Shown: positions 1-11,584 of the stretch, piece by piece
Numbering within the stretch: the first letter of the stretch is position 1
Layout of the letters: the number at the start of each line of letters is the position of its first letter
Source: Trueperella sp.
GTDB lineage: Bacteria > Actinomycetota > Actinomycetes > Actinomycetales > Actinomycetaceae
Reading direction: 5' to 3'
DNA length: 18,323 bases
Assembly (NCBI GenBank): GCA_012727825.1
Contig: JAAYGH010000022.1
Location: forward strand, 1 to 18,323
Position numbers and translations under genes: made by a program
The notes under the pieces: generated by a model
Databases searched by the model: none
What the model saw: the letters and a program-made list of their open reading frames with translations, nothing else
What the model was told of the DNA's origin: nothing

Positions 1-265
1 CTTTCGGGTCGAGCCTCCGCTTGTGATCGGAAGCCTGAAGGACCTCCTCCGCCGATTCGAACTCGCCGCTCTTGATTCGCTCGGCGTCTACTTCAGAGAG
101 CATCACAACGCGCCGTGATCCCTTCCTGCGCACGGGCTTACCGACTGAGCGCACCGCGTCGTCGATGGTCGACCCGTTCGTAGCCGAATGGGCGTCGTCT
201 TTCTCGGAGTAGGCGCCCGAACGATCGCTCTCAGCATCTGCCTTGGACGAATCCTTAGCGGTCAA
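1..265 (-). CDS. Hypothetical protein, 3' part cut by window edge
   Basis: A reading frame stays open on the minus strand from a TTG at 265-263 to the left edge, giving 88 residues without a stop. The TTG is preceded by GAGGA with a 5-6 base spacer. It overlaps the last 11 bases of the upstream helicase-like gene, so the two are probably translationally coupled. The visible part begins MTAKDSSKADAESDRSG and is hydrophilic and probably disordered for about 40 residues. It then has a basic patch (KPVRRKGSRR) followed by a more ordered stretch containing VVMLSEVDAERIKSGEF. I do not recognise a family. Overlap and strand suggest a job linked to the large upstream protein, but that is inference. 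The C-terminus is missing, so a domain could lie outside the window. Confidence 0.7.
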   Translation of the reverse strand, partial: MTAKDSSKADAESDRSGAYSEKDDAHSATNGSTIDDAVRSVGKPVRRKGSRRVVMLSEVDAERIKSGEFESAEEVLQASDHKRRLDPK

Positions 266-3200
266 TGTCATCCTCGAGGAACGGATCCTCATCGCCGAGT
301 TCGAGGCCGTCATCGCTTTCCTGGGTGATCTCGTAATCCACCTCGGTGGCAGCGTCGGATTCCTTGTGGGAAACCTCGTTGCCGAGGTCGACGTCAGCGG
401 CATCTACCTCGTCACCTGCGGGATCAAGCTCGTCTACAAGAGCGTCATCGCTGTCGACCGCCTCGTTGGGCAGTTCGTCAACGTGAGCGACGTGATCGCC
501 TTCAGGCTCAAGCTCGGCTTCGGGCTCAAGCTCGGCTTCAGGCTCAAGCTCGTCTACAAGCTCATGTTCGGGAGCGTCCTCATCAAATTTTGCGGCAACG
601 CCTATCAAACCCGAACGGCGCGTCACGTTACGTAGGATGACGTCCACCTGTTCACCGCGACGTTCAATTCCGAGCTCTGCCCGCAGCTCGCGCACAAGCT
701 CATCCTCACCGCGGATCTTGCCGTCCGAGGCGACCCACTCAATCATGTCATCGAGCTGGTCGTCGCTATACGCCGCAAGGCTCAAGCCGGGCGTCACATC
801 CGGTCGAACGCCGCGAGGGCGCAGATCGCCATCTGGATTATCAAGGCCCGGATTCTGCTTGTCGATCTCGGTGGTCTCCCAGCCCTCGGCCAGTTCTGCG
901 CCGTCCTCGGTCAGGGTGGGCACTCGGACAGGGTCAGGGTGATCCGGGAAACGCTCCTTGAGAAGCTCCTCGATTCCAGCCACTTGACCATCCGGATCAA
1001 TGAATAGGGAACTCGAGAAGGTCTGGAACACGGACCATCCGCGTGACTCAAGCGCGTTGACCCAGAAGCGATCCCTGCGGCGCAGCGATCTCTCACTGAC
1101 ATACGCGTCGTCATCAATCATCACGGCGATCACGTATTCGTCACCCCGACCAACGACCAACGGAATGCGGGGCGAATCATCGTATCCATACGAAGCACGT
1201 GCGGACCACCCACGGTCGTGGAGGCGATTGGCGACGTCGGCAAGAAGCGGCGCAACGACGTCGTCGCCAATGACATGCGGGACCTCGGACCCGCCCGCTT
1301 CCTCAATGAGGCGTGCGAGCAGACGCGGGCCGGGCGTGGACACGCGGCGCGCGTCGATATCGCCGGGGCCAAGTGCCGAAACAATCGTCAGGTCCGAGCC
1401 TGCTGCAGCGATCGCGTCAATAAGTCCGGCGAGACCCTCGGGAGTCGCCAGCGCTCCGAACGAGTGGAGAACCCGGCCGTGGACGGTCTTGCCGTAGCCA
1501 ACAGACAGGATCACGTGGTCGCGTTTCAAGCCTGATGCCCGTGTGATGTCAGTAATGACGAAGCGTTTCAGATTCTCGATATCGCTCGAGTTTGCGTTAA
1601 GGATTGCTTCGCGAATGCGGTGCGCGTGGGTGACGGACAGCGTGACGACTGCAAGGGTATCCTCGGGCCGGCTCGTCGCGTGCTCGATCACGGCGTCCAC
1701 GGCGGCATTGATCTCTACCTGCGTGGATTCCACGGCGCCGTCGCCAGATGTTCCTGGCACTCCCCGGCCGTCCACATAGATCAGGCGTGATTCGCGCGAG
1801 GCGTGGACGCTTGGGATGGCATGCAGATCGTATCCAATTTCCTTGAGTGCAAACGTCGCCAGGGCGTCGTGTTCAGCTTGGAACGTCGGCAGTTCGGCAA
1901 CGGGCAAGACGTCCTCGAACAGGCGCATTGCCTCGCCACTCGGGCGCTTCAGATCACCAACCACGACTGCCTGACGGCCACGCATCATCGGCGAGATGAG
2001 GGTGGCCACTGAATCGACGGCTTCGACCAGCACGAGATCCGCCCATGGCATCGGGGGGATGAACTCTGCCAGGACACTCGGTGGGACGACCCACACGGGA
2101 CGCGACGCCTGGACGAGGCGCGAATAGGTAGCGATCGCGTCACGCAAACCGCCGGTACCGTCCTCGGCAAGATTCTGGTCAAGCTTGAGCGTGTCATGGC
2201 GACGTTCCTGCATTATAGCGCGGGAGTTATTGACGACGGCACGGAGCACCGGCCCGCCCAGGGTCTGTGTGTGCTCGCGATCGAGTCTGCGCAAGTCGTT
2301 GAGCAACTCCGTAAGGTCACGTGGGCCAAGACTGGCCAAGGTGGGCGACTTACTGATCATGTGCTCGAACACGGCCGAGGTGTATGCGAGGTTGAGCTCG
2401 GCAGGAATATCGTCGGCTGGGACGCCGCGTTCCACGACGTCCTCGAGGAACGTGCCAAAACCGTTCTCGCGCAAGGAGCGGAGTTTCGCGTTACGTTCAG
2501 GCAACGTGGACATGTGGTGCGAATCGTTGACCAGCGCCGCGAGGCGTTCTTGCAACTCCTCGAAGTCCATGTCGAAGAAAGGTTCACCGTCGAGGTGGCC
2601 GATGAGGGATTCAAGATCGCGCTGAACCTCCGTGCGGGTCGCTCGAATCTGCGCCATGCCGTCTGGGAGGATCGGCCAGCCGCCATCAGGCGAATATTGG
2701 CGCCAAATTTCGCGGCGCTCTTGCACCTTGAGTAGCTCTTCGTGGAGGTTCGCCGTGGATTCACCCGGGCGTACGAGATCAAGCGCCTGCTTCCTGAAAC
2801 GCCGACGATCGGACATCTTCATCGCATGCCCGTGCGAGTCACGCCATTCCTTGGGAGCGGACGCGATCGCCATGTTCATTGGCGACGTCTCGAAAACGCG
2901 CGGAACAAACGTGTCGAGGGAGTCAGCGATGCCATCGAGGACATCAATGTGTTCGAACCACTGGGCAAGCGTGGTCGGCTGTTTCATTGAGGTTTCTCCC
3001 GCAGAGCGAGAGGACTGACTGATCGCAGCCGGGACGGTGATGTCATTGAGACGACGTACTTCGTCGAGAGCTTCGGTACCCGCGGACGCATCAGAAATGG
3101 TGGATCCAGCCCACGCCGAGCGGGAAATATCCGGATCGAAGGCACCCAGTTCGGCGGCGCGATCGAAGTCGGCGTTAATGGCCTCAAACCCGCCGTCCTT

Positions 3201-4835
3201 CATTGCGCTCACGGCCTTCTCGCCCAGGCGCACACGGGTTTGTGGCGGATTCTGCTCGGCCATCAGACCGGCAAGTTTTTCGAGGAGTTCGTGCACGGAG
3301 GTGCCCCATTCGGGATCCTCATGATGCAAGTCATCGACGAACGACTCGAGCGTGCGGCGGGTGGCCACAAGCTTGGAGCGAATCTTTAAGGTCTCGTCGG
3401 TCGGGAGCTCCGGATGTCGCAGGCGCAACCCTGTGCGGATGCGTTGCGGGACCTTGTCAACTTCAGAAAAGTCCAGCACGAGATCGCCAAGCCCGAGTTT
3501 TTCGAGCTCGTCGATGAGCTGGCGGCCTGACGAGAGTCGCGCTGGCACCACAAGAACTGAGCGATTCGACGCCGCGGCGTCCGCACAGATCGACGCCATT
3601 GTTTCTATGCGTTGAGATCCAGGCGGGCAGTCAACCACGATCGATCGACCAGAAGCCACAGCCTCGACGGCGTTGAGCTCGGCAACGTCCAGGTCACCGG
3701 CACCACGCTCTACTTCCGGGGTGCGATCTTCTTCGCCACCCGGTGGCAGTGGCGCGGCCGAGAGCTTGCGAGTTTCTTCGTCACCCGCAAGCGCCATCAT
3801 GATGCCCGAGGTGCGAATGTAGGGCTCCATTGCCTCGAGATCCGAAAGCATGGTGCGCGCTGGGCGTTCGAAGCAGCCTAAATGAGCGACGAATTCGGAG
3901 GAAAATCCTGGTAGGTAGGTACGGCCAAACGCCACGACGACCTCGAACAGATCGTCGAGGTCGGTCGTACGCTGAGTGGCCTCACGGAGCTGTGTCAAGT
4001 TCTCGGGTGTGGCGCCGTTTTCACGCAGTGCGCGCAGGAATGCAGGATTGATTTTGGTGCGCTTGAGTTGGCGAACAACCGCGTCTCCATCATCATCAAA
4101 CTTCAACGTGACGGCACGGAAGAGCGCATATTCATTGACTTCGATCGCCTCGCGTGGGGTTTCTCGCGTAGCGGGAGCGTCGGCCTCACCATGAGCGGCT
4201 TCGTCCGCGTCGACGGAGGCACCAAGGTCCGTCTCGGCGCCGTGTTCGGGCTGCGTTTTGTGGTCGGATGCAACCATCGGAAACTCGCCCGTCATCTCAG
4301 GCGCGTCGATGTTGATCGGGGACTCATCTTTGGAGGTCACTGGCGGCAGTTCTGTCCACGTCAACCGGCCTACCGCCAGCGAAATCGGTGCGTGTCCGTA
4401 CAGCTCAGAAAGGTGGTGGGTCGTGACCTTGAGACGCTGAAGGTTGTTGATCGCGCGCTGCTGTGCAAAACGCTCACGAACGAGGGAGGTGATACGCACC
4501 GGTGAGCCGGAAGAAAACAGGGCAGATCCCGTTGGGTGTGGATGAGTGAGATCGATGATTCCGTTGGTCTCATCGCTGGGTGCTTCGCCGGCCTGCTGGG
4601 CGCGGGTAGCAAGCTCTTCATGCCAGCTCGTGTACGCCGCCTCGAGAAGTTCCTCGCGAGAACGCGAATGCGCGGGGGCGGGAACGCTCTGGGCAGGGGA
4701 CTCGGGAGATGGCGCTGATTCGGGTGAATCCCCCGGAGTTTCGGCGCTCTGCGCGGACTCCGCGGACGTCTGATCCGGGGAGTCCGCCGATAACGGCTGC
4801 TGGGACTTTTTCCTGCGTCTAAAGAAAGGGCTCAC
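255..4835 (-). CDS. Helicase/nuclease-like large protein with degenerate catalytic motifs (DUF4011-type)
   Basis: This 1526-residue protein has a GTG start preceded by GGTGG. Residues about 57-275 resemble the DUF4011 region (LYGHAPISLAVGRLTW; INPAFLRALRE). A RecA-like core begins near 388. The Walker A position reads CPPGSQR (403-409) instead of GPPGTGK. The DEAS box reads VEAV (937-940). GDPKQ reads GDLKR (960-964). VQGDERD reads ASGLKRD (1100-1106), followed by the typical ILSVGYG. The usual VAVTRAR is missing near 1140. Residues about 1200-1290 resemble the MTES_1575 restriction-endonuclease-like domain, with the catalytic Asp and Glu replaced by Pro1225 and Met1239. A small domain (about 1380-1415, ELVRELRAELGIERRG) precedes an acidic tail of about 110 residues. 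The frame is intact and codon use is ordinary, so this is not a decaying pseudogene. I infer a non-enzymatic DNA-binding or scaffold role. The family assignment is from memory of motif patterns. Confidence 0.85.
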   Translation of the reverse strand: MSPFFRRRKKSQQPLSADSPDQTSAESAQSAETPGDSPESAPSPESPAQSVPAPAHSRSREELLEAAYTSWHEELATRAQQAGEAPSDETNGIIDLTHPHPTGSALFSSGSPVRITSLVRERFAQQRAINNLQRLKVTTHHLSELYGHAPISLAVGRLTWTELPPVTSKDESPINIDAPEMTGEFPMVASDHKTQPEHGAETDLGASVDADEAAHGEADAPATRETPREAIEVNEYALFRAVTLKFDDDGDAVVRQLKRTKINPAFLRALRENGATPENLTQLREATQRTTDLDDLFEVVVAFGRTYLPGFSSEFVAHLGCFERPARTMLSDLEAMEPYIRTSGIMMALAGDEETRKLSAAPLPPGGEEDRTPEVERGAGDLDVAELNAVEAVASGRSIVVDCPPGSQRIETMASICADAAASNRSVLVVPARLSSGRQLIDELEKLGLGDLVLDFSEVDKVPQRIRTGLRLRHPELPTDETLKIRSKLVATRRTLESFVDDLHHEDPEWGTSVHELLEKLAGLMAEQNPPQTRVRLGEKAVSAMKDGGFEAINADFDRAAELGAFDPDISRSAWAGSTISDASAGTEALDEVRRLNDITVPAAISQSSRSAGETSMKQPTTLAQWFEHIDVLDGIADSLDTFVPRVFETSPMNMAIASAPKEWRDSHGHAMKMSDRRRFRKQALDLVRPGESTANLHEELLKVQERREIWRQYSPDGGWPILPDGMAQIRATRTEVQRDLESLIGHLDGEPFFDMDFEELQERLAALVNDSHHMSTLPERNAKLRSLRENGFGTFLEDVVERGVPADDIPAELNLAYTSAVFEHMISKSPTLASLGPRDLTELLNDLRRLDREHTQTLGGPVLRAVVNNSRAIMQERRHDTLKLDQNLAEDGTGGLRDAIATYSRLVQASRPVWVVPPSVLAEFIPPMPWADLVLVEAVDSVATLISPMMRGRQAVVVGDLKRPSGEAMRLFEDVLPVAELPTFQAEHDALATFALKEIGYDLHAIPSVHASRESRLIYVDGRGVPGTSGDGAVESTQVEINAAVDAVIEHATSRPEDTLAVVTLSVTHAHRIREAILNANSSDIENLKRFVITDITRASGLKRDHVILSVGYGKTVHGRVLHSFGALATPEGLAGLIDAIAAAGSDLTIVSALGPGDIDARRVSTPGPRLLARLIEEAGGSEVPHVIGDDVVAPLLADVANRLHDRGWSARASYGYDDSPRIPLVVGRGDEYVIAVMIDDDAYVSERSLRRRDRFWVNALESRGWSVFQTFSSSLFIDPDGQVAGIEELLKERFPDHPDPVRVPTLTEDGAELAEGWETTEIDKQNPGLDNPDGDLRPRGVRPDVTPGLSLAAYSDDQLDDMIEWVASDGKIRGEDELVRELRAELGIERRGEQVDVILRNVTRRSGLIGVAAKFDEDAPEHELVDELEPEAELEPEAELEPEGDHVAHVDELPNEAVDSDDALVDELDPAGDEVDAADVDLGNEVSHKESDAATEVDYEITQESDDGLELGDEDPFLEDDIDR
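501..554 (-). repeat. Three tandem 18-bp repeats in the acidic tail coding region
   Basis: Three adjacent 18-base units (501-518, 519-536, 537-554) differ at one or two positions. They encode the LEPEAE-type repeat inside the acidic C-terminal tail of the helicase-like protein. Because the unit is a multiple of three, copy number can change by slippage without breaking the frame. Confidence 0.9.
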
Positions 4836-4917: not shown

Positions 4918-5823
4918 TTAGGCCGACATTCCGGAGGTTATGTGGTCATCACACAGCACGCCGTCGCCACAGTTTTCGCACGTCACGAGACGAGCGCGGC
5001 AGCTAGCTTCGTCGCAGTTGTGCAACAGGGAGGTTGGTTCGTCGCACTTGTGGCAGCGGCCGATGACCACCGGATCGTCACCGAAGTCCACCACCTCTCG
5101 ACCGTCGAACACCGTGAGCGCGCCCTTCCATCGGCCCGTATTACCGAATTTTTCGGCGTAGCGCACGATGCCACCGTCGATCTGCATGACGTTGGCAAAA
5201 CCGCGATTTTTCATCACAGAGGTCAGCACCTCACAGCGGATTCCGCCAGTGCAGTAGGTGAGGATTGGCGTGTTTTTGAGGTGGTCGTACTCGCCGGAAT
5301 CGAGGAGTTGGATGAAATCATGGGTGGTGTTTGTGGGCGGGACTATCGCGCCCTCGAAGCGTCCCACCTCGGCTTCGATCGCGTTGCGGCCGTCGAAAAA
5401 CACGAGGTCCGGGTTCTCGGCGATTACCTGTTCGATGTCTTCAGGTTTGACGTGGAGGCCGCCGTCGATCACGCCGTTGGTGTCAACTTTCAGCTCATCG
5501 GCGGCACCAAATGCCACGATCTCCTTGCGGACCTTGACCGACAGGCGTGGGAAGTCGAGCGACGAGCCGCCGTCGTCCACACCCGTGCCCTCGGATATCT
5601 TCCACTCAATATCCCGGAAGGGCTCGTACTCTTTTGTTGCCTTTTGGTACGCCTTCACTGCCGTGAGATTGCCACCGACAGTGCCGTTGATGCCGTGCTC
5701 CGAAATGAGGATACGGCCGCGCAGGCCTAGCCGTTCGCACAGGTTCCACTGCCACAGGCGAACAGCCTGGGGGTCAGCGATCGGCGTGAACTTGTAGTAC
5801 AGCAAAATGCGGGATTGGGTCAC
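4918..5823 (-). CDS. trhO: tRNA uridine(34) hydroxylase TrhO (rhodanese family)
   Basis: This 301-residue protein is of the TrhO/YceA (UPF0176) family, which hydroxylates U34 of certain tRNAs using oxygen to give 5-hydroxyuridine. The N-terminus (SRILLYYKFTPIADP) and GINGTVGGN are typical of its N-terminal domain. The central rhodanese domain carries YCTGGIRCE, with the catalytic Cys at about residue 191. The C-terminal segment holds seven cysteines (CHKC, NC, SC, TCENC, LC) that probably bind a metal, as in other actinobacterial members. I chose GTG at 5823 because AAGGA lies about seven bases upstream and the product then starts like its relatives. The frame stays open to 5883, but that extension (rich in Ser) has no good ribosome site. 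It lies 62 bases downstream of tRNA-Arg and 82 bases upstream of the helicase-like gene. Confidence 0.93.
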   Translation of the reverse strand: MTQSRILLYYKFTPIADPQAVRLWQWNLCERLGLRGRILISEHGINGTVGGNLTAVKAYQKATKEYEPFRDIEWKISEGTGVDDGGSSLDFPRLSVKVRKEIVAFGAADELKVDTNGVIDGGLHVKPEDIEQVIAENPDLVFFDGRNAIEAEVGRFEGAIVPPTNTTHDFIQLLDSGEYDHLKNTPILTYCTGGIRCEVLTSVMKNRGFANVMQIDGGIVRYAEKFGNTGRWKGALTVFDGREVVDFGDDPVVIGRCHKCDEPTSLLHNCDEASCRARLVTCENCGDGVLCDDHITSGMSA

Positions 5824-6023: not shown

Positions 6024-6049
6024 GGGGACTCAGCGAGATTCTAGTCCCC
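6024..6049 (-). terminator. Possible terminator at the end of the universal stress gene
   Basis: GGGGACT (6024-6030) and AGTCCCC (6043-6049) form a 7-bp stem around a 12-base loop and overlap the TAG stop of the upstream gene. In the minus direction it is followed about 20 bases later by AATTTTC rather than an immediate T tract, so the call is weak. Confidence 0.4.
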
Positions 6050-6988
6050 CAGCTTGATACCCGGCTCATCCGGATCCACGTACTGGACCGGCCCTGGGCC
6101 GACGTCGTCGCCAAGTCGTACGCGACGTGGCACCACCATCGTCGGACAGGCTGAGTATCCAAGTAGCGTCTGCGAAGTCGATCCGAGTAACAGACCAGTG
6201 AATCCACCTCGGCCCCGAGTGCCGAGCACGATGAGGTCTGCGTTCTCCGATTCTTGGGCGAGGAGGTGCGCGGGGCTTCCCTCCATGGCCACGATCTCGG
6301 TGTCAATTTGACGCCCCTCATCCACTTCGGCGAGGGCCTTCGCGATCTCATCTTCCATTTCCTCAAGATGTTCCTCACGAAACGCGTGCGCAGGAACCCA
6401 GCCAGCGGCCGCTGGATTGACGGCCGTGATAATTTTCAGCTTCGCATTCCACCGATCCGCCTCCCACACCGCTCGTTGCAGCGCCATCTTCGAGTGTTGC
6501 GAACCGTCCACACCACACACCACTCGCTCGATCGGAATGTGAAGATCAGGGCTGTCGGTTGGAACGACGACGGTCGGACAGTAGGCGTTCGCAGGCACGG
6601 CCGACGACACGGTTTTCAGCAGGCGATCCGCGAGACGGCTGGTGTTTCGGGTCGGGCCACCAACCACGACGAGCGCCACGCGCTTCGAGATCTCCACGAG
6701 CACCTCAGTCGGATCACCGAATTCGAGAGAGGACGTGACTTCTACTCCTTGCCCCTCCACCGCCTCGACTGCCTTATCCACAATTCGTTTCGCCGAGTCA
6801 AACAGGTGATTGACGTTACCTTGGTCCACCTGGAACTCGGGCGTCATGTATTGGGACGGAAGTTCGTATCCACAGACGATATGGAGGCGAGCTTCACGCG
6901 CTCGCGCTTGAGCGTGCGCCCACTCGAGAGCTGCGCTCCCGGCTTCCGAACCATCGATTCCTACGACAACAATATTTTCATGCGCCAT
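6041..6988 (-). CDS. Tandem-domain universal stress protein (UspA family)
   Basis: This 315-residue protein is made of two UspA domains (about 1-150 and 155-300). The first begins MAHENIVVVGIDGSEAGSA and the second contains VVCGVDGSQHS. The second domain has the full nucleotide-binding pattern G-2x-G-9x-G-S starting at Gly256 (GTRGRGG, then GSTS). In the first domain the matching stretch GGPTRNTS lacks the second glycine, so probably only one ATP site is intact. A tail of about 25 residues (RVRLGDDVGPGP) follows. ATG at 6988 is chosen because GAGGAGG lies at the right distance. The open frame reaches 7087 but has no better start. Family members act in dormancy, hypoxia and general stress, and the exact role is not shown. 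A 198-base leader with two hairpins separates it from the NlpC gene. Confidence 0.92.
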   Translation of the reverse strand: MAHENIVVVGIDGSEAGSAALEWAHAQARAREARLHIVCGYELPSQYMTPEFQVDQGNVNHLFDSAKRIVDKAVEAVEGQGVEVTSSLEFGDPTEVLVEISKRVALVVVGGPTRNTSRLADRLLKTVSSAVPANAYCPTVVVPTDSPDLHIPIERVVCGVDGSQHSKMALQRAVWEADRWNAKLKIITAVNPAAAGWVPAHAFREEHLEEMEDEIAKALAEVDEGRQIDTEIVAMEGSPAHLLAQESENADLIVLGTRGRGGFTGLLLGSTSQTLLGYSACPTMVVPRRVRLGDDVGPGPVQYVDPDEPGIKLGD

Positions 6989-7092
6989 TGCGTCCTCCTC
7001 AATACGTACCCATTCTTTCACTGAGGAAGATCCTTTGCTGGCCATTCGGCAAATTGGCCACTGATCCGCACACTCGAATGATGGCAATAAAC

Positions 7093-7123
7093 GGGGAAAT
7101 CGGAAATACCGATTTCCGTCCCC
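7093..7123 (-). terminator. Stem-loop upstream of the stress protein, possible second terminator
   Basis: GGAAATCGG (7095-7103) pairs perfectly with CCGATTTCC (7109-7117) across a 5-base loop, and further G-C pairs can form after a two-base bulge. In the minus direction it is followed by GTTTATTG, a weak T-rich run. It could be a second terminator for the NlpC gene or a leader structure of the stress gene. Confidence 0.45.
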
Positions 7124-7135
7124 TCATAGCAACGG

Positions 7136-7161
7136 AAAAGGGACCCATGCGGGTCCCTTTT
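7136..7161 (-). terminator. Rho-independent terminator after the NlpC/P60 gene
   Basis: An 11-bp perfect stem (AAAAGGGACCC, 7136-7146; GGGTCCCTTTT, 7151-7161) encloses a 4-base loop and starts 26 bases after the NlpC stop. The A run on one side and T run on the other make it able to act in both directions. Confidence 0.78.
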
Positions 7162-7186
7162 CTTAAGATCTGAGTTGTTCTGAGGC

Positions 7187-7984
7187 TTAGCCGAAGACGC
7201 GGATCACGGTCGGGGTGCCAACGTAGGAATCTGGACCCACGCGGGTGCCCATCGAGGCGTTCCACGCACCAATGTGCTGCCCGCCACCGACGGAAATGCC
7301 GACGTGGCCTGGCCAGTAGAGGATGTCGCCGGGCTGAACCTGCGAGTAAGGAACCTGACGGCCAACCGACAGGACTGAGGTGGTGTAGCCACCGATGTGC
7401 ACGCCATGCTGGGCGTAAACATAGCGAACGAAGCCGATGCAATCCCAGCCTGCCGGAGTGGTGCCACCCCAACGGTAAGGAGCGCCCGCGTAAGCAAGTG
7501 CCGTTCCAACGACCGAGCTCGACGAGCCCGAATTAACTGCAGGTGCAGGTGCTGCCTGCTGAGCCGGAGCTGCGGCCCGTGCCGGAGCTGCCTGTGCCGG
7601 AGCTGCGGCCTGCTGAGCCTGTGCCTGCTGTTCAGGAGCGGCTGCCTGTGCGGTGGCTGCTTCAGCTTGAGCTGGAGCTTCCTCCTGAGCAACCTCTTCC
7701 ACAACTGGAGCTTCGGCGTCGATAACGACCTGCTCCATCTCCCACTCGCCGCCCGACACCGAAGCGAGCTCGATCGAGGCAACCTCGTTGGCTTCAACTG
7801 CCGGGGTCTCAAGGGCTACTGCTGCAGCCTTCTGGGGTTCAACGCTCTCATCGTTCGGTGAAGCAAATGCGATTGGCGCACCGATACCCATCAGCATTCC
7901 TGCTGCGGATGCGGTGGCTGCTGTCGTCATGGTTGACTTCGAGAAGGTTGCACGAGTCTTAACCATTTCGTGACGTCCCGCCAT
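7187..7984 (-). CDS. Secreted NlpC/P60 cell-wall peptidase
   Basis: This 265-residue exported protein begins with a long n-region, a hydrophobic stretch (AAGMLMGIGAPIAFA) and a likely cut after AFA at about residue 40. An Ala/Pro/Gln-rich low-complexity linker (about 90-155) leads to a C-terminal NlpC/P60 domain (about 160-265). Such enzymes cleave peptide stems of peptidoglycan. The catalytic Cys182 lies in WDCIGF, where most relatives have DCSGF, and His227 is in GHVGISVG. At the usual third catalytic position (the H of the MIHA pattern) this protein has Gly239, with His237 two residues before. ATG at 7984 follows TGGAG by about nine bases. Two further in-frame starts (8026 and 7966) are less well placed. 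A promoter candidate and a strong terminator frame it as a single-gene unit. It may act in daughter-cell separation, which is inference. Confidence 0.92.
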   Translation of the reverse strand: MAGRHEMVKTRATFSKSTMTTAATASAAGMLMGIGAPIAFASPNDESVEPQKAAAVALETPAVEANEVASIELASVSGGEWEMEQVVIDAEAPVVEEVAQEEAPAQAEAATAQAAAPEQQAQAQQAAAPAQAAPARAAAPAQQAAPAPAVNSGSSSSVVGTALAYAGAPYRWGGTTPAGWDCIGFVRYVYAQHGVHIGGYTTSVLSVGRQVPYSQVQPGDILYWPGHVGISVGGGQHIGAWNASMGTRVGPDSYVGTPTVIRVFG

Positions 7985-8060
7985 AAAATTTCTCCATAAT
8001 GCTACTGAATTAACGATTCTCGCCAAAGTAAATCAATGCGATTTCTTAGGCACGAGTACC

Positions 8061-8089
8061 AGCATAACGGGAGAGTAACGTTTTGTCAC
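8061..8089 (-). promoter_or_regulatory. Promoter candidate for the NlpC/P60 gene
   Basis: On the minus strand GTGACA (8089-8084) and TATGCT (8066-8061) are separated by exactly 17 bases and match the housekeeping consensus at five and four positions. The leader would be about 70 bases. The rest of the 136-base gap is AT-rich with no other clear motif. Confidence 0.45.
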
Positions 8090-8120
8090 GATTTGATAAC
8101 GATGGCATGCGTCACTGCAA

Positions 8121-8798
8121 TTATTTAACGAAGATTCCCTTGGCTACATCGGCTGAAAGGCGCGTAGAATCAAGGCCCTGAGAGATGATCGCACTGGCGG
8201 ATTCGATAACATCCACCGTTATTTTAGCTCCGGGACGTAACTCTTCATAGTCGAGCATGGATAAAACGTCCTCGTGGAGCTGCGTCACTTCAGCGATACG
8301 CACGATCTCGTAGGTGGTCCCATCGCCGGCGAAATCGATATCCATGATGGACACGAGCCCCTCCTCGCTCACGTCAGGAATCTGGGTCGTATTTAGCGAG
8401 GGGATCGGATTTCCGAAAGGGTCTGTGCGCGGGTGCAAAAGAAGCGCTTCGATGCGGTTCGCAACCTCCTCGGACACGACGTGCTCCCACCGGCACGCCT
8501 CGCGATGGATCTGCCACCAATCGAGTTTGATCACGTCGTGTAACAATCGCTCAGCTAGCCGATGGCGGCGCATGACTTTGATGGCATCCTCGCGCCCCGC
8601 ATCAGTCAAAATGATTTCTCGGTTCGGCGCCATTGACACCAGGCCGTCGCGTTCCATGCGACTGACCGTCTCGGAGACCGTGGGCCCAGATTGGCCGAGG
8701 CGTTCGACGATTCGTGCCCGCAACGCGGGCACGCCCTCCTCGTACAGCTCATAGATCGTCTTGAGGTACATCTCGGTGGTGTCAATTAGTTGGCTCAT
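8121..8798 (-). CDS. dtxR: DtxR-family iron-dependent transcriptional repressor
   Basis: This 225-residue protein is nearly colinear with Corynebacterium diphtheriae DtxR (226). It has an N-terminal winged helix (about 1-72; LRARIVERLGQSGPTVSETV), a dimer and metal domain (about 73-140; HRLAERLL, EACRWEHV, DPFGNPIP), and a C-terminal SH3-like domain (about 148-225). All known ligands fall at the same numbers: His79, Glu83, His98, Glu170 and Gln173 for the ancillary site, and Met10, Cys102, Glu105 and His106 for the primary site. When loaded with ferrous iron such proteins repress uptake and siderophore genes. ATG at 8798 has GGAGGA eight bases upstream. It diverges from serC across 103 bases. 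I see no classical DtxR operator (TTAGGTTAGCCTAACCTAA) in the window, so its targets lie elsewhere. The intact Cys102 and ancillary site favour an iron sensor over a manganese MntR. Confidence 0.95.
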   Translation of the reverse strand: MSQLIDTTEMYLKTIYELYEEGVPALRARIVERLGQSGPTVSETVSRMERDGLVSMAPNREIILTDAGREDAIKVMRRHRLAERLLHDVIKLDWWQIHREACRWEHVVSEEVANRIEALLLHPRTDPFGNPIPSLNTTQIPDVSEEGLVSIMDIDFAGDGTTYEIVRIAEVTQLHEDVLSMLDYEELRPGAKITVDVIESASAIISQGLDSTRLSADVAKGIFVK

Positions 8799-8901
8799 TG
8801 CTGGGCTCCTCCACTATCTACGGTCAATGATATAGGAGTTGCCATGAACCATAGGTTGGAAACGAACACCCCGATGAGCGCGCCTTTGAGACGATAGAGC
8901 C

Positions 8902-10011
8902 ATGACGAACAACCATGCCCTATCACTGTCCCCCGAATCTTTGCCGCGCGACGGCCGCTTCGGCTCTGGCCCGTCAAAGGTGCGCAAGGAGCAGCTTGCC
9001 GCAATTCAGAGCCCGCCCATGGGAACGTCTCATCGGCAGCCGGGGGTGCGAAACATCGTCGGAGCTATCCAGTCGGGACTGACCGAGCTGTTCTACCTAC
9101 CCGATGGCTACGAGGTGATTGTGGGTAATGGAGGCGCAAGCGCACTCTGGGACGCAATTACCTTCAACCTCGTGGACGACCGTGCCCAAACTGCCGTCAT
9201 TGGAGAATTTTCAGGAAAAGCCGCGCGCGCCATTGAACGCGCTCCGTGGCTGGCCGCGCCGGATGTGCGCCGCGTTGAGCCTGGGCAGATGGTCGAGTGC
9301 CACACCACGCCCGGAATCGATACCTATATATATGCACACAACGAAACGTCCACTGGCGCCACCACCACCCTGAAGCGTTTCGGCGACGGCGGAGCACTCA
9401 CGGTCGTTGACGGCACCTCGATCGCTGGGGGTATCGACGCCGATGTCTCAGCCGCCGACTTTTACTATTTTTCACCGCAAAAATGCTTTGGCGCCGATGG
9501 CGGGCTCTGGCTCGCATTCGCATCCCCGGCCGCTCTTGACCGCATCGAGCGGCTCAGCTCCGAACGATGGACGCCCGACTTCCTCAACCTTCAGCTCGCC
9601 GTCGCGAACTCCCGCAAGGCCCAAACACTCAACACCCCGGCCATCGCCACGCTTCTCATGCTCGAGAACCAGATCTCATGGATGCTGGCCGAAGGCGGGC
9701 TTGCGGCAATGGAGGCCCGCACGCACGCGAGCTCATCCGCGATTTACGAGTGGGCGACGGCGCGAGATTTCGCCAGCCCGTTCATTGCGCCCGAATATCG
9801 CTCGCCAGTCGTGTGCACGATTGATTTTGCTGACGACGTCGACGCTGCGGCAATCGCCCATATGCTGCGCGCGCATTCGATCGTGGATATCGAACCCTAC
9901 CGTTCCCTTGGCCGCAACCAAGTTCGGATTTCAACGTTCCCCGCAATCGACATCGAGGATGTGCACAGGCTCCTGTCCGCAATTGATGAGGCAGTCGCCG
10001 CGCACCGGTGA
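8902..10011 (+). CDS. serC: Phosphoserine aminotransferase
   Basis: This 369-residue PLP enzyme converts 3-phosphohydroxypyruvate plus glutamate to phosphoserine and 2-oxoglutarate, the second step of serine synthesis. It resembles the actinobacterial (M. tuberculosis-type) SerC. Features are GRFGSGPSKVR near the N-terminus, the cofactor loop GNGGASALWDAITFNL at about 74, and YYFSPQKCFGADGG, in which Lys194 should form the Schiff base. NTPAIATLLMLE follows near 245 and FPAIDIED near 350. The length is normal. ATG at 8902 has only a weak upstream GATAGAG, so a poor ribosome site or very short leader is likely. It stands alone on the plus strand between dtxR and the permease. Other serine-pathway genes are not in the window. 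Confidence 0.95.
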   Translation: MTNNHALSLSPESLPRDGRFGSGPSKVRKEQLAAIQSPPMGTSHRQPGVRNIVGAIQSGLTELFYLPDGYEVIVGNGGASALWDAITFNLVDDRAQTAVIGEFSGKAARAIERAPWLAAPDVRRVEPGQMVECHTTPGIDTYIYAHNETSTGATTTLKRFGDGGALTVVDGTSIAGGIDADVSAADFYYFSPQKCFGADGGLWLAFASPAALDRIERLSSERWTPDFLNLQLAVANSRKAQTLNTPAIATLLMLENQISWMLAEGGLAAMEARTHASSSAIYEWATARDFASPFIAPEYRSPVVCTIDFADDVDAAAIAHMLRAHSIVDIEPYRSLGRNQVRISTFPAIDIEDVHRLLSAIDEAVAAHR

Positions 10012-10059
10012 TTGCAATGGCCCGCGGCGCATTGCGGTAGCTCCTATATATAGGACAGA

Positions 10060-10096
10060 GAAGGGCGGTGGCGGTCTTAGACCGCCACCGCCCTTC
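10060..10096. terminator. Bidirectional terminator between serC and the permease
   Basis: A perfect 16-bp stem (10060-10075 with 10081-10096) encloses a 5-base loop in the gap between the converging serC and permease genes. It has no T tract on either side, so termination would depend on the very GC-rich stem or on Rho. A 14-base perfect palindrome TCCTATATATAGGA lies just before it at 10042-10055. Confidence 0.7.
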
Positions 10097-10108
10097 GAGC
10101 TGGGTACC

Positions 10109-11578
10109 TTAGTTGATTCCCAGTGCGTTTGTAATGGGATCCATGAGGAAATAGAGGACGAACAGGACGGCCGTCAGCCACATGAGTGGGTGGACCTTTG
10201 ATGCTCGGCCAACAACAGCCTGCATGAAGACGTAGACGATGAAGCCCACGCCGATGCCAACGGTGATCGAGTATCCGAAGGGCATGAAGATGATCGTGAT
10301 AAACGCGGGAATCGCGACGGCAAGGTCTTGCCAGTCGATATCCACAACCTGCTGCATCATCATGAAACCAACGACGACGAGCGCGGGTGCGGCCGCCTGC
10401 GAAGGCACCAGCGCAAACAGCGGCGCGAGGAAGGTTGAGAGCAAGAAAAGAATACCGGTGAAAATAGCCGACAGACCAGTACGTGCGCCTTCACCTACAC
10501 CGGTGGCAGACTCAACGAAGGACGTGTTCGAGGAGACGCCGCCCATGCCTCCCGCGATGGCACCCAGAGAGTCAACCAAAAGGATCGCTTGCGTGCGCGG
10601 AGGATTGCCCTCCTCATCGAGGAGGTCGCCCTCAGATGCAACGGCGACCATGGTTCCCATGGTGTCGAAGAAGTCAGCGAGCATGACCGAGAAGGCCAGA
10701 ACGACAACGGCGAGGACACCGAGCTTTTGGAACGGGCCCGTGATAGAAAATTCGCCAAGCGTGGAGAAATCAGGAACGTTGATGACCGAACCGGAAAGCT
10801 TCGGCTCTGTCAGACCCCAACCGCCGACCTTGCCCACTGCTTCAATGATGAAAGCAATAACCGTGGAGACCATGATCGACCAGAGGATCGCACCCTTCAC
10901 GCCTCTCGCCATGAGGGCGATCGTGAGGAACAAACCGATGATGAAGACGACGAGCGGCCACGTGGAAATCGATCCGTTCACGCCGAACACAAGGGGCGTA
11001 CCTTCACCTGTGGAGACGATGCCTGCGTTGACAAGGCCGACGAGTGCGATGAAGAGGCCGATACCCACCGAGATCGCAGTGCGGAGAACCTTCGGCACGG
11101 CACGGAAGATCGCCTCGCGCAGGCCGGTCAGGACGAGCAGGAGGATGACGATACCTTCGATGACGATGATCCCCATGCCGTCCGCCCAGGTCATACCCGG
11201 AAGTTGAACGACTGTGTAGGCAATAATCGAGTTGAGCCCGAGTCCGGCCGCGAGCGCCAGTGGGAAATTGGCCACGGCACCCATGAGAATCGTCATGATG
11301 CCGGCTATGAGTGCGGTGCCGGCCGAGATCGCCGCAATATTGGGTTCTGAGCCACCGCCGAGGAAAGCGCCTGTGCTATCGGGACCCGAAAGGATCAATG
11401 GATTAAGAACAAGGATGTAGACCATCGAGAAGAACGTGACGAGGCCGCCACGGAACTCTTGGGCAACGTTAGTGCCCCGTTCGGTCAATTTAAATGTGCG
11501 GTCAAGCCAAGTGGGCGTGGGTTCAGGGGTGGGCTGATTCGTCTGCTGCGTGGTCGCAGTACCATTTGAGATAGTCAC
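10109..11578 (-). CDS. NCS2-family nucleobase permease (AzgA/PbuG-like)
   Basis: This membrane protein of about 489 residues is a proton-coupled nucleobase importer of the NCS2 family, AzgA-like branch, which takes up adenine, guanine or hypoxanthine. After about 40 soluble residues, many hydrophobic segments follow (12-14 expected). Diagnostic stretches are the first helix (FRGGLVTFFSMVYILVLNP), LALAAGLGLNSIIAY, ADFFDTMGT, and SSNTSFVESATGVGEGARTG; the Asp and Glu in the last two line the substrate site in the family. Adjacent TTG (11581) and GTG (11578) codons can start the protein. I chose GTG because no ribosome site is visible and a promoter candidate would begin the transcript near 11578. 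An 18-bp palindrome lies in that promoter. The exact nucleobase cannot be read from sequence alone. Confidence 0.9.
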   Translation of the reverse strand: MTISNGTATTQQTNQPTPEPTPTWLDRTFKLTERGTNVAQEFRGGLVTFFSMVYILVLNPLILSGPDSTGAFLGGGSEPNIAAISAGTALIAGIMTILMGAVANFPLALAAGLGLNSIIAYTVVQLPGMTWADGMGIIVIEGIVILLLVLTGLREAIFRAVPKVLRTAISVGIGLFIALVGLVNAGIVSTGEGTPLVFGVNGSISTWPLVVFIIGLFLTIALMARGVKGAILWSIMVSTVIAFIIEAVGKVGGWGLTEPKLSGSVINVPDFSTLGEFSITGPFQKLGVLAVVVLAFSVMLADFFDTMGTMVAVASEGDLLDEEGNPPRTQAILLVDSLGAIAGGMGGVSSNTSFVESATGVGEGARTGLSAIFTGILFLLSTFLAPLFALVPSQAAAPALVVVGFMMMQQVVDIDWQDLAVAIPAFITIIFMPFGYSITVGIGVGFIVYVFMQAVVGRASKVHPLMWLTAVLFVLYFLMDPITNALGIN

Positions 11579-11584
11579 CAATTG

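Follow-up and report, generated by a model that had tools for sequence, protein, structure and literature searches.

The window, i.e. the whole analysed stretch of 18,323 nucleotides from Trueperella sp. (contig JAAYGH010000022.1), contains a giant helicase/nuclease-like gene, termed PH, whose product is probably a pseudo-enzyme: the gene, acquired anciently and then passed on vertically as part of the core set of the order (Actinomycetales), would have lost its ATPase and later its nuclease centre and have been kept for a non-catalytic function. The ca. 4.6-kb frame noticed in the original prediction is intact, lies on the minus strand and is uninterrupted by stops. The gene and the relevant regions of its product are:

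255..4835, minus strand: pseudo-helicase/nuclease gene PH, GTG start, 1526 residues, no internal stop
4311..4643, minus strand: N-terminal DUF4011-like region, about residues 65–175 (weak DUF4011 matches in relatives, invariant residues)
3609..3629, minus strand: degenerate Walker A CPPGSQR, residues 403–409 (alignment; strand-loop-helix in the model)
2016..2027, minus strand: degenerate motif II VEAV, residues 937–940, DE changed to E938 and A939 (translation, alignment)
1944..1958, minus strand: motif III remnant GDLKR, residues 960–964, Q changed to R (alignment)
1518..1538, minus strand: degenerate motif V ASGLKRD, residues 1100–1106 (alignment)
1398..1418, minus strand: former motif VI (TRAR), now DAIAAAG, residues 1140–1146 (alignment)
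966..1238, minus strand: MTES_1575 (Vsr-like PD-(D/E)xK) pseudo-nuclease, residues 1200–1290 (PF18741 match, alignment, model)
603..773, minus strand: C-terminal helical segment, residues 1355–1411 (model; the ProA profile match reaches residue 1407)

Alignment with nine intact relatives, in all of which (9/9) Walker A, the motif II DE pair and the triad of the nuclease are present, revealed that the window protein replaces K by R409 and S/T by I410 in Walker A, DE by E938-A939 in motif II, Q by R964 in motif III, Q/E by S/K in motif V and R by A1144 in motif VI, and at the nuclease site D by P1225 and E by M1239. Of the 13 positions scored, D1241, the second Asp of the nuclease site, is the sole one retained. 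The window protein has neither the residues of active superfamily 1 (SF1) helicases (GxxxxGK[ST], DE and those of motifs V and VI) nor the catalytic Asp and Glu of active PD-(D/E)xK nucleases, whose places are taken by P1225 and M1239. Because the Walker Lys, the catalytic Glu, the motif VI Arg and the nuclease Asp/Glu are all lost, PH would be expected from its sequence to show no ATP hydrolysis by the conventional mechanism and no cleavage of nucleic acid. The altered strings had been pointed out in the original prediction and lie at the residues named there, as do ILSVGYG (1109–1115) and RSLRRRDRFW (1249–1258), regarded as preserved scaffold; VEAV occurs additionally at 390–393, and VAVTRAR is absent from the protein as claimed. 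A hidden second P-loop was considered and rejected, as the window protein contains no GxxxxGK[ST] elsewhere; a GxxxxGK[ST]-like string is found outside the Walker A position in 6 of 92 inactive-family loci.

The confident predicted model exhibits a UPF1-like SF1B fold, its two RecA-like domains superposing on IGHMBP2/UPF1. In the structure prediction, proposed earlier as a check, the P-loop and the nuclease strands appear to be formed by the altered strings, in agreement with their assignment. RecC was absent among the PDB matches listed for the model, which excludes nothing. Pfam recognized in the window protein only MTES_1575 (PF18741; residues 1200–1290, 44.3 bits versus a curated cut-off of 38.2) and no helicase domain. 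DUF4011 (PF13195) likewise gave no Pfam match in it and weak ones in the relatives P0108, P0101 and P0111 (P, L, G, C and f denote our numbered proteins, loci, genomes, contigs and family groups); W71, H100, P101 and R120 of the N-terminal region are invariant in alignment A1. The NCBIfam profiles antiphage_ProA (NF058533; 210.3 bits, curated cut-off 1500) and Hhe (NF042953; 70.3 bits, curated cut-off 2000) matched below their cut-offs, and the PADLOC profile of the candidate PDC-S37, printed with no cut-off, yielded 227 bits (best stretch 1033–1405) versus 817–1218 for intact relatives. The helical segment 1355–1411 presumably occupies the position of the DUF3320/winged helix-turn-helix (wHTH) domain of relatives.

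The presumption of a whole clade of pseudo-enzymes turned out to be right and even understated. A motif table was built from P0001–P0109, taken from the best 120 of 130 proteins found with the window protein as query, and 107 of them were scored after omission of P0088 and P0095 (<1000 residues). Walker A in the form GxxxxGK[ST] and the nuclease triad [DE]-E-D, each kept in 9/9 intact relatives, are each kept in 0/107 of these proteins and in 0/80 loci of named genomes, which are the best 80 of at least 563 confirmed relatives and include Georgenia, Cellulomonas, Promicromonospora, Isoptericola and Actinomyces; the loss thus exceeds what chance would give. A close orthologue with normal motifs was not found among these proteins and loci, nor among 31 family loci. 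The Walker Lys column has drifted and holds, among other residues, V, R, T, A and K, whereas in 72 dereplicated sequences the first nuclease Asp is Pro in 68 and the second is invariant (72/72). The conservation of R1252, R1254 and R1256 extends over both intact and dead forms. Locus L270 (f5) displays normal letters at motifs V and VI and at the nuclease but reads unusually where Walker A aligns, possibly a frame or alignment problem. Several orthologue entries carry the database name 'DNA helicase' despite absent helicase motifs, a label which is probably wrong for members lacking them.

PH is nearly universal in the order. The window protein as query matched in 151/151 family genomes and 36/36 genera (worst best E value 2e-109), and an intact relative as query in 119/119 order genomes from 52/52 genera and 17 family groups. 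In 115/119 order genomes the presence of an orthologous frame no shorter than 1100 residues was verified (106 fetched loci plus nine family genomes, including G258 and G289, whose frames reach the end of the available stretch); of the remaining ones, G272 and G325 have frames cut short, and G260 and G275 only a paralogue-size or no listed match. A 0.8-Mb genome (G290) retains a 1205-residue PH with altered motifs. Outside the order the occurrence is patchy, with any match in 24/100 phylum genomes, four of which belong to the order while many others are weak; f68, a further family outside the order, contains PH in 8/8 genomes, with the Walker Lys replaced by Arg in 8/8. Plasmid records matching the window protein amount to 299, mostly of Klebsiella (230), and among the matches listed nine of ten are Acinetobacter DUF4011 proteins. 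Only one plasmid record, the 415-kb NZ_CP116225.1 of A. oris (L281), covers at least 80% of the window protein; with PH, mscL, 5-formyltetrahydrofolate cyclo-ligase (5-FCL) and other core neighbours it carries the same neighbourhood and may be a chromosome piece or secondary chromosome. A single phage match is weak.

The ATPase motif was lost first and the nuclease later, as follows from the distribution of Walker A and the triad over the tree groups. Among 132 order loci scored (four loci, L206 among them, were left out since their proteins duplicate those of other loci, and f3 was scored apart through L116), a normal Walker A is restricted to the Dermatophilaceae-type group f4/f44 (7/10; named relatives Knoellia, Pedococcus and Nostocoides) and occurs in 0/122 other loci. 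The nuclease triad, with gaps counted as not kept (L182, L211, L232, L242, L243, L244), persists in 8/10 loci of f4/f44, 4/8 of f52, 1/15 of f46/51/53, 9/26 of f45/54/2 and 1/8 of f49, and in 0/65 of the clade comprising f43, f48, f55, f47, f50 and f1; L116, the 133rd locus, is without Walker A (Lys to Ala) and has D-V-D at the nuclease. Groups were named after the named proteins grouping there (f2 Zhihengliuella, f45 Brevibacterium, f46 Pseudokineococcus, f47 Promicromonospora, f49 Brachybacterium, f51 Kineococcus, f52 Kineosporiaceae bacterium). A mixture-model tree (66 rows, catalytic columns excluded, short search) gave values in the SH-like approximate likelihood ratio test of 99 for the order clade, 99 for f4/f44, 100 for the rest and 100 for the nuclease-dead clade. 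More than one loss of Walker A is suggested by f4, which mixes normal and altered members (5/8 normal), and parsimony counts three changes (76 of 77 rows counted; also in a 30-row set); one clade for the loss is not rejected by the approximately unbiased test (30 rows, LG+G4, p 0.086). The replacements of the Walker Lys are family-specific, with Gln in 7/9 f2, Ala in f45, f46 and f51, Gly in f54, Leu/Ala/His in f52 and Val plus others in f47 and f50, which fits drift after the site was no longer needed.

The altered copies are clearly under purifying selection. The ratio of nonsynonymous to synonymous substitution rates (dN/dS, NG86) has a median of 0.14 over 40 disjoint pairs (range 0.073–0.307); two pairs with normal Walker A reached 0.28 and 0.26, a rough comparison because genus and divergence differ. 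In the dead clade 87 columns are near-invariant. A pseudogene or sequencing error is disfavoured by the open frames and the low dN/dS; one or two in-frame stops were seen in a few family members. The earlier suggestion that both catalytic centres were lost without decay, pointing to a non-catalytic role, is supported by the dN/dS of 0.14, by the occurrence in 151/151 family and 115/119 order genomes and by the UPF1-like model.

PH is accompanied by a small gene:

1..271, minus strand: companion gene, small protein with a PPH[WF] tail; its ATG at 271 overlaps the PH end, and it is cut by the contig end

The tail of the window companion ('...DDVPPHFGNL') opens another contig of this genome, C349, on which SAF, 5-FCL and MoeA genes come next. 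Companions comprise about 50–120 residues, lie directly 3' of PH and have an often Arg-rich N-terminal part and a tail of roughly GWG...DDxRLLRERPPHW, with PPHF in the window's relatives. The companion is present in 198/205 in-order loci with room downstream, 173 times separate and 25 times fused in-frame to the PH C-terminus; since some loci represent one genome twice (e.g. L171, L072), the 205 are not fully independent. It is absent in 7/205 (four of f55), and 11 further in-order loci have no room; outside the order it was found in 0/5 loci with room downstream. Tested by place, it appeared downstream in 136/143 loci, on the other strand in 1/143 and further down in 3/135, upstream in 1/143 and 0/143, and inside PH in antisense in 1/215. 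In the f55 loci L201 and L216 a PPHW tail occurs 3–5 kb downstream, not adjoining PH, and 4/4 f55 loci are without it in the tested range. Pfam and NCBIfam families gave no match in three companions. That the companion adjoins PH and is in places fused to it speaks for the two functioning jointly.

Beyond what the computations show, namely the loss of motifs, the predicted fold, the purifying selection, the near-universal occurrence, the shared neighbourhood and the companion with its fusions, we propose a first scenario for PH. An anciently acquired gene composed of a DUF4011-like part, an SF1B (UPF1-like) helicase and an MTES_1575 nuclease would have joined the core genes that the order inherits vertically, would have lost its ATPase motifs early and its nuclease residues later, and would have survived for a non-catalytic function. 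Most likely PH binds nucleic acid via the preserved RecA-like and nuclease-like folds, perhaps inside a protein complex; the preserved surfaces around R1252, R1254 and R1256 might provide the contacts. Like the inactivated nuclease domain of RecC and like D. radiodurans PriA, it would serve as scaffold or sensor, here in some housekeeping process on nucleic acids such as repair, replication or transcription. It would work with the companion, which is short and mostly disordered; the conserved PPH[WF] tail of the latter is a candidate for a docking peptide and could recruit another factor. PH may well be a new housekeeping machine. A more far-reaching idea is put forward tentatively: PH and the PPH[WF] peptide would form a nucleic-acid machine not described so far, belonging to the core of the whole order and perhaps essential. 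Its helicase-nuclease would have been disarmed stepwise, the ATPase perhaps three times according to parsimony and the nuclease later, while fold, neighbourhood and companion were retained, which would make it a RecC-like hub serving transcription or the maintenance of the chromosome.

Several observations weigh against the first scenario. Pseudo-ATPases can still bind nucleotide, Lys is found in the Walker column of 5/31 family loci, though without GK[ST], and the DE pair of motif II is kept in 18/107 proteins lacking Walker A (e.g. P0034, P0043, P0045). The closest characterised families are anti-phage (NCBIfam, PADLOC). With a threshold of E ≤ 1e-3 a companion model matched in 27/59 class genomes, and PH has no match in 13 of these 27, so that the companion is spread more widely than PH and is not an obligate partner; the model is insensitive, the window's own companion pieces scoring only 0.002 and 0.07. 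Docking of the fused PPHW tail onto PH was not observed in AlphaFold models, where the tail is disordered (predicted local distance difference test, pLDDT, ~46–53).

PH might still be anti-phage, namely a sensor derived from DUF4011 helicases of the Hhe/ProA/PDC-S37 type which detects invading DNA without cutting it. The profile matches (ProA 210 bits, Hhe 70 bits, PDC-S37 227 bits) and the 299 plasmid records fit this view, and a core DUF4011 gene resides beside a defence hotspot in P. aeruginosa (PMC10250203), so that core status alone leaves a defence link possible. However, PH is near-universal in the order, is kept in a 0.8-Mb genome, has a shared neighbourhood and is under purifying selection, and the only plasmid record of at least 80% coverage has the same neighbours, next to one weak phage match. 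We consider a defence sensor unlikely, and the genome-defence variant of the original prediction is not supported because of the near-universality of PH, its tree by family groups and its largely conserved neighbourhood. A nucleotide-binding switch, in which the altered P-loop binds ATP or another nucleotide without hydrolysis and thereby controls complex assembly, would agree with the largely kept PPG[ST] part in the window's clade and with the motif II Asp kept in 60/72 dereplicated sequences. It nevertheless appears rather improbable, as the Lys and Ser/Thr columns drift, the motif VI Arg is R in 0/65 loci and the loop sequence itself is gone in f43 (e.g. GTQDTDTAE).

Catalysis by substituted residues, for instance at a Pro/Leu/Asp nuclease site with an RxRDR helix, would explain the invariance of D1241 and of the Arg cluster, but Pro and Leu/Val/Met at metal-binding positions, the family-specific Walker Lys replacements and the lack of another P-loop in the window protein render such a non-canonical enzyme very doubtful. 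Finally, slow decay of a once useful enzyme on its way to loss is compatible with the stepwise catalytic loss on the tree, Walker A first and the nuclease triad later, and with the in-frame stops found by search in a few family members; apart from these stops, frequent frameshifts or absences were not seen in the genomes sampled. Long open frames in nearly all genomes, the 87 near-invariant columns and a dN/dS not above that of pairs with normal Walker A make it extremely improbable.

RecC of RecBCD has inactive SF1-type helicase domains. Its nuclease domain is homologous but inactivated (PMC1185551), and the protein is kept as a DNA-handling scaffold; PH resembles it in these inactivated domains, an analogy only. 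Unlike RecC, which stands beside active RecB/RecD, PH has no known active partner, its helicase is UPF1-like (SF1B) and its nuclease of the MTES_1575/Vsr type. Deinococcus radiodurans PriA is described in PMC4504706 as a pseudohelicase which lost its motifs, has no ATPase or unwinding activity and keeps DNA binding; PH, judged from motif loss and fold, is likewise a conserved bacterial helicase-like protein with lost motifs, but belongs to another helicase family, has a nuclease domain and shows graded stages of loss inside one order, whereas the loss in PriA concerns one phylum. With the anti-phage proteins Hhe, ProA and PDC-S37, PH appears to share the domain order DUF4011, SF1 helicase and MTES_1575 nuclease, its N-terminal part being DUF4011-like, whereas it scores far below the curated cut-offs and is without the catalytic residues of the 9/9 intact relatives (a comparison by profile models). 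MTES_1575 of Microbacterium testaceum (PMC3710099) combines, like PH with its presumed wHTH position, a Vsr-type restriction endonuclease, an SF1 helicase and a C-terminal wHTH (overlapping DUF3320), and unlike PH adds HEPN and transglutaminase domains.

In the open-access literature searched, neither a function of PH nor a report on its family, the companion, the conservation throughout the order or the inactivation in steps was found; the accessible part of Micrococcus luteus competence work (PMC8467076) revealed no link to PH. Pseudohelicases and inactivated nuclease domains are already known kinds. A protein of ~1200–1700 residues kept across 17 family groups of one order, including a 0.8-Mb genome, represents a large gap in actinobacterial biology. 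The graded series of intact, ATPase-dead and ATPase- plus nuclease-dead forms is a natural experiment on the transition from enzyme to structural protein, and the companion peptide offers a direct handle for finding PH partners.

The remaining neighbourhood in the window consists of:

4918..5811, minus strand: upstream co-directional rhodanese-type gene, near PH in 0/80 named loci and outside the conserved pair
6041..11581, no strand given: upstream neighbourhood with universal stress protein, NlpC/P60, DtxR-type regulator, SerC-like and NCS2 permease genes, partly shared in the family

The rhodanese-type gene, which we take to be trhO-like, sits between the universal stress protein gene and PH. 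Near PH in the 80 named loci, the upstream genes usp, nlpC, ideR, ncs2 and serC were found 17, 16, 15, 10 and 4 times, respectively. Downstream, mscL occurs in 70/80 named loci and in 11/17 family groups; it was not seen in f2, f48, f49, f51, f53 and f55, several loci having short flanks. After mscL varying sets of SAF-domain, 5-FCL, GalU, MoeA and GNAT genes follow, and the RefSeq order in Actinomyces oris reads usp, 'DNA helicase', hypothetical protein, mscL, SAF, 5-FCL, Glp and GNAT. In L281 (2160-2672), a Tox-REase-5 gene and large hypothetical genes are located near PH between the NCS2 permease and a major facilitator superfamily (MFS) gene.
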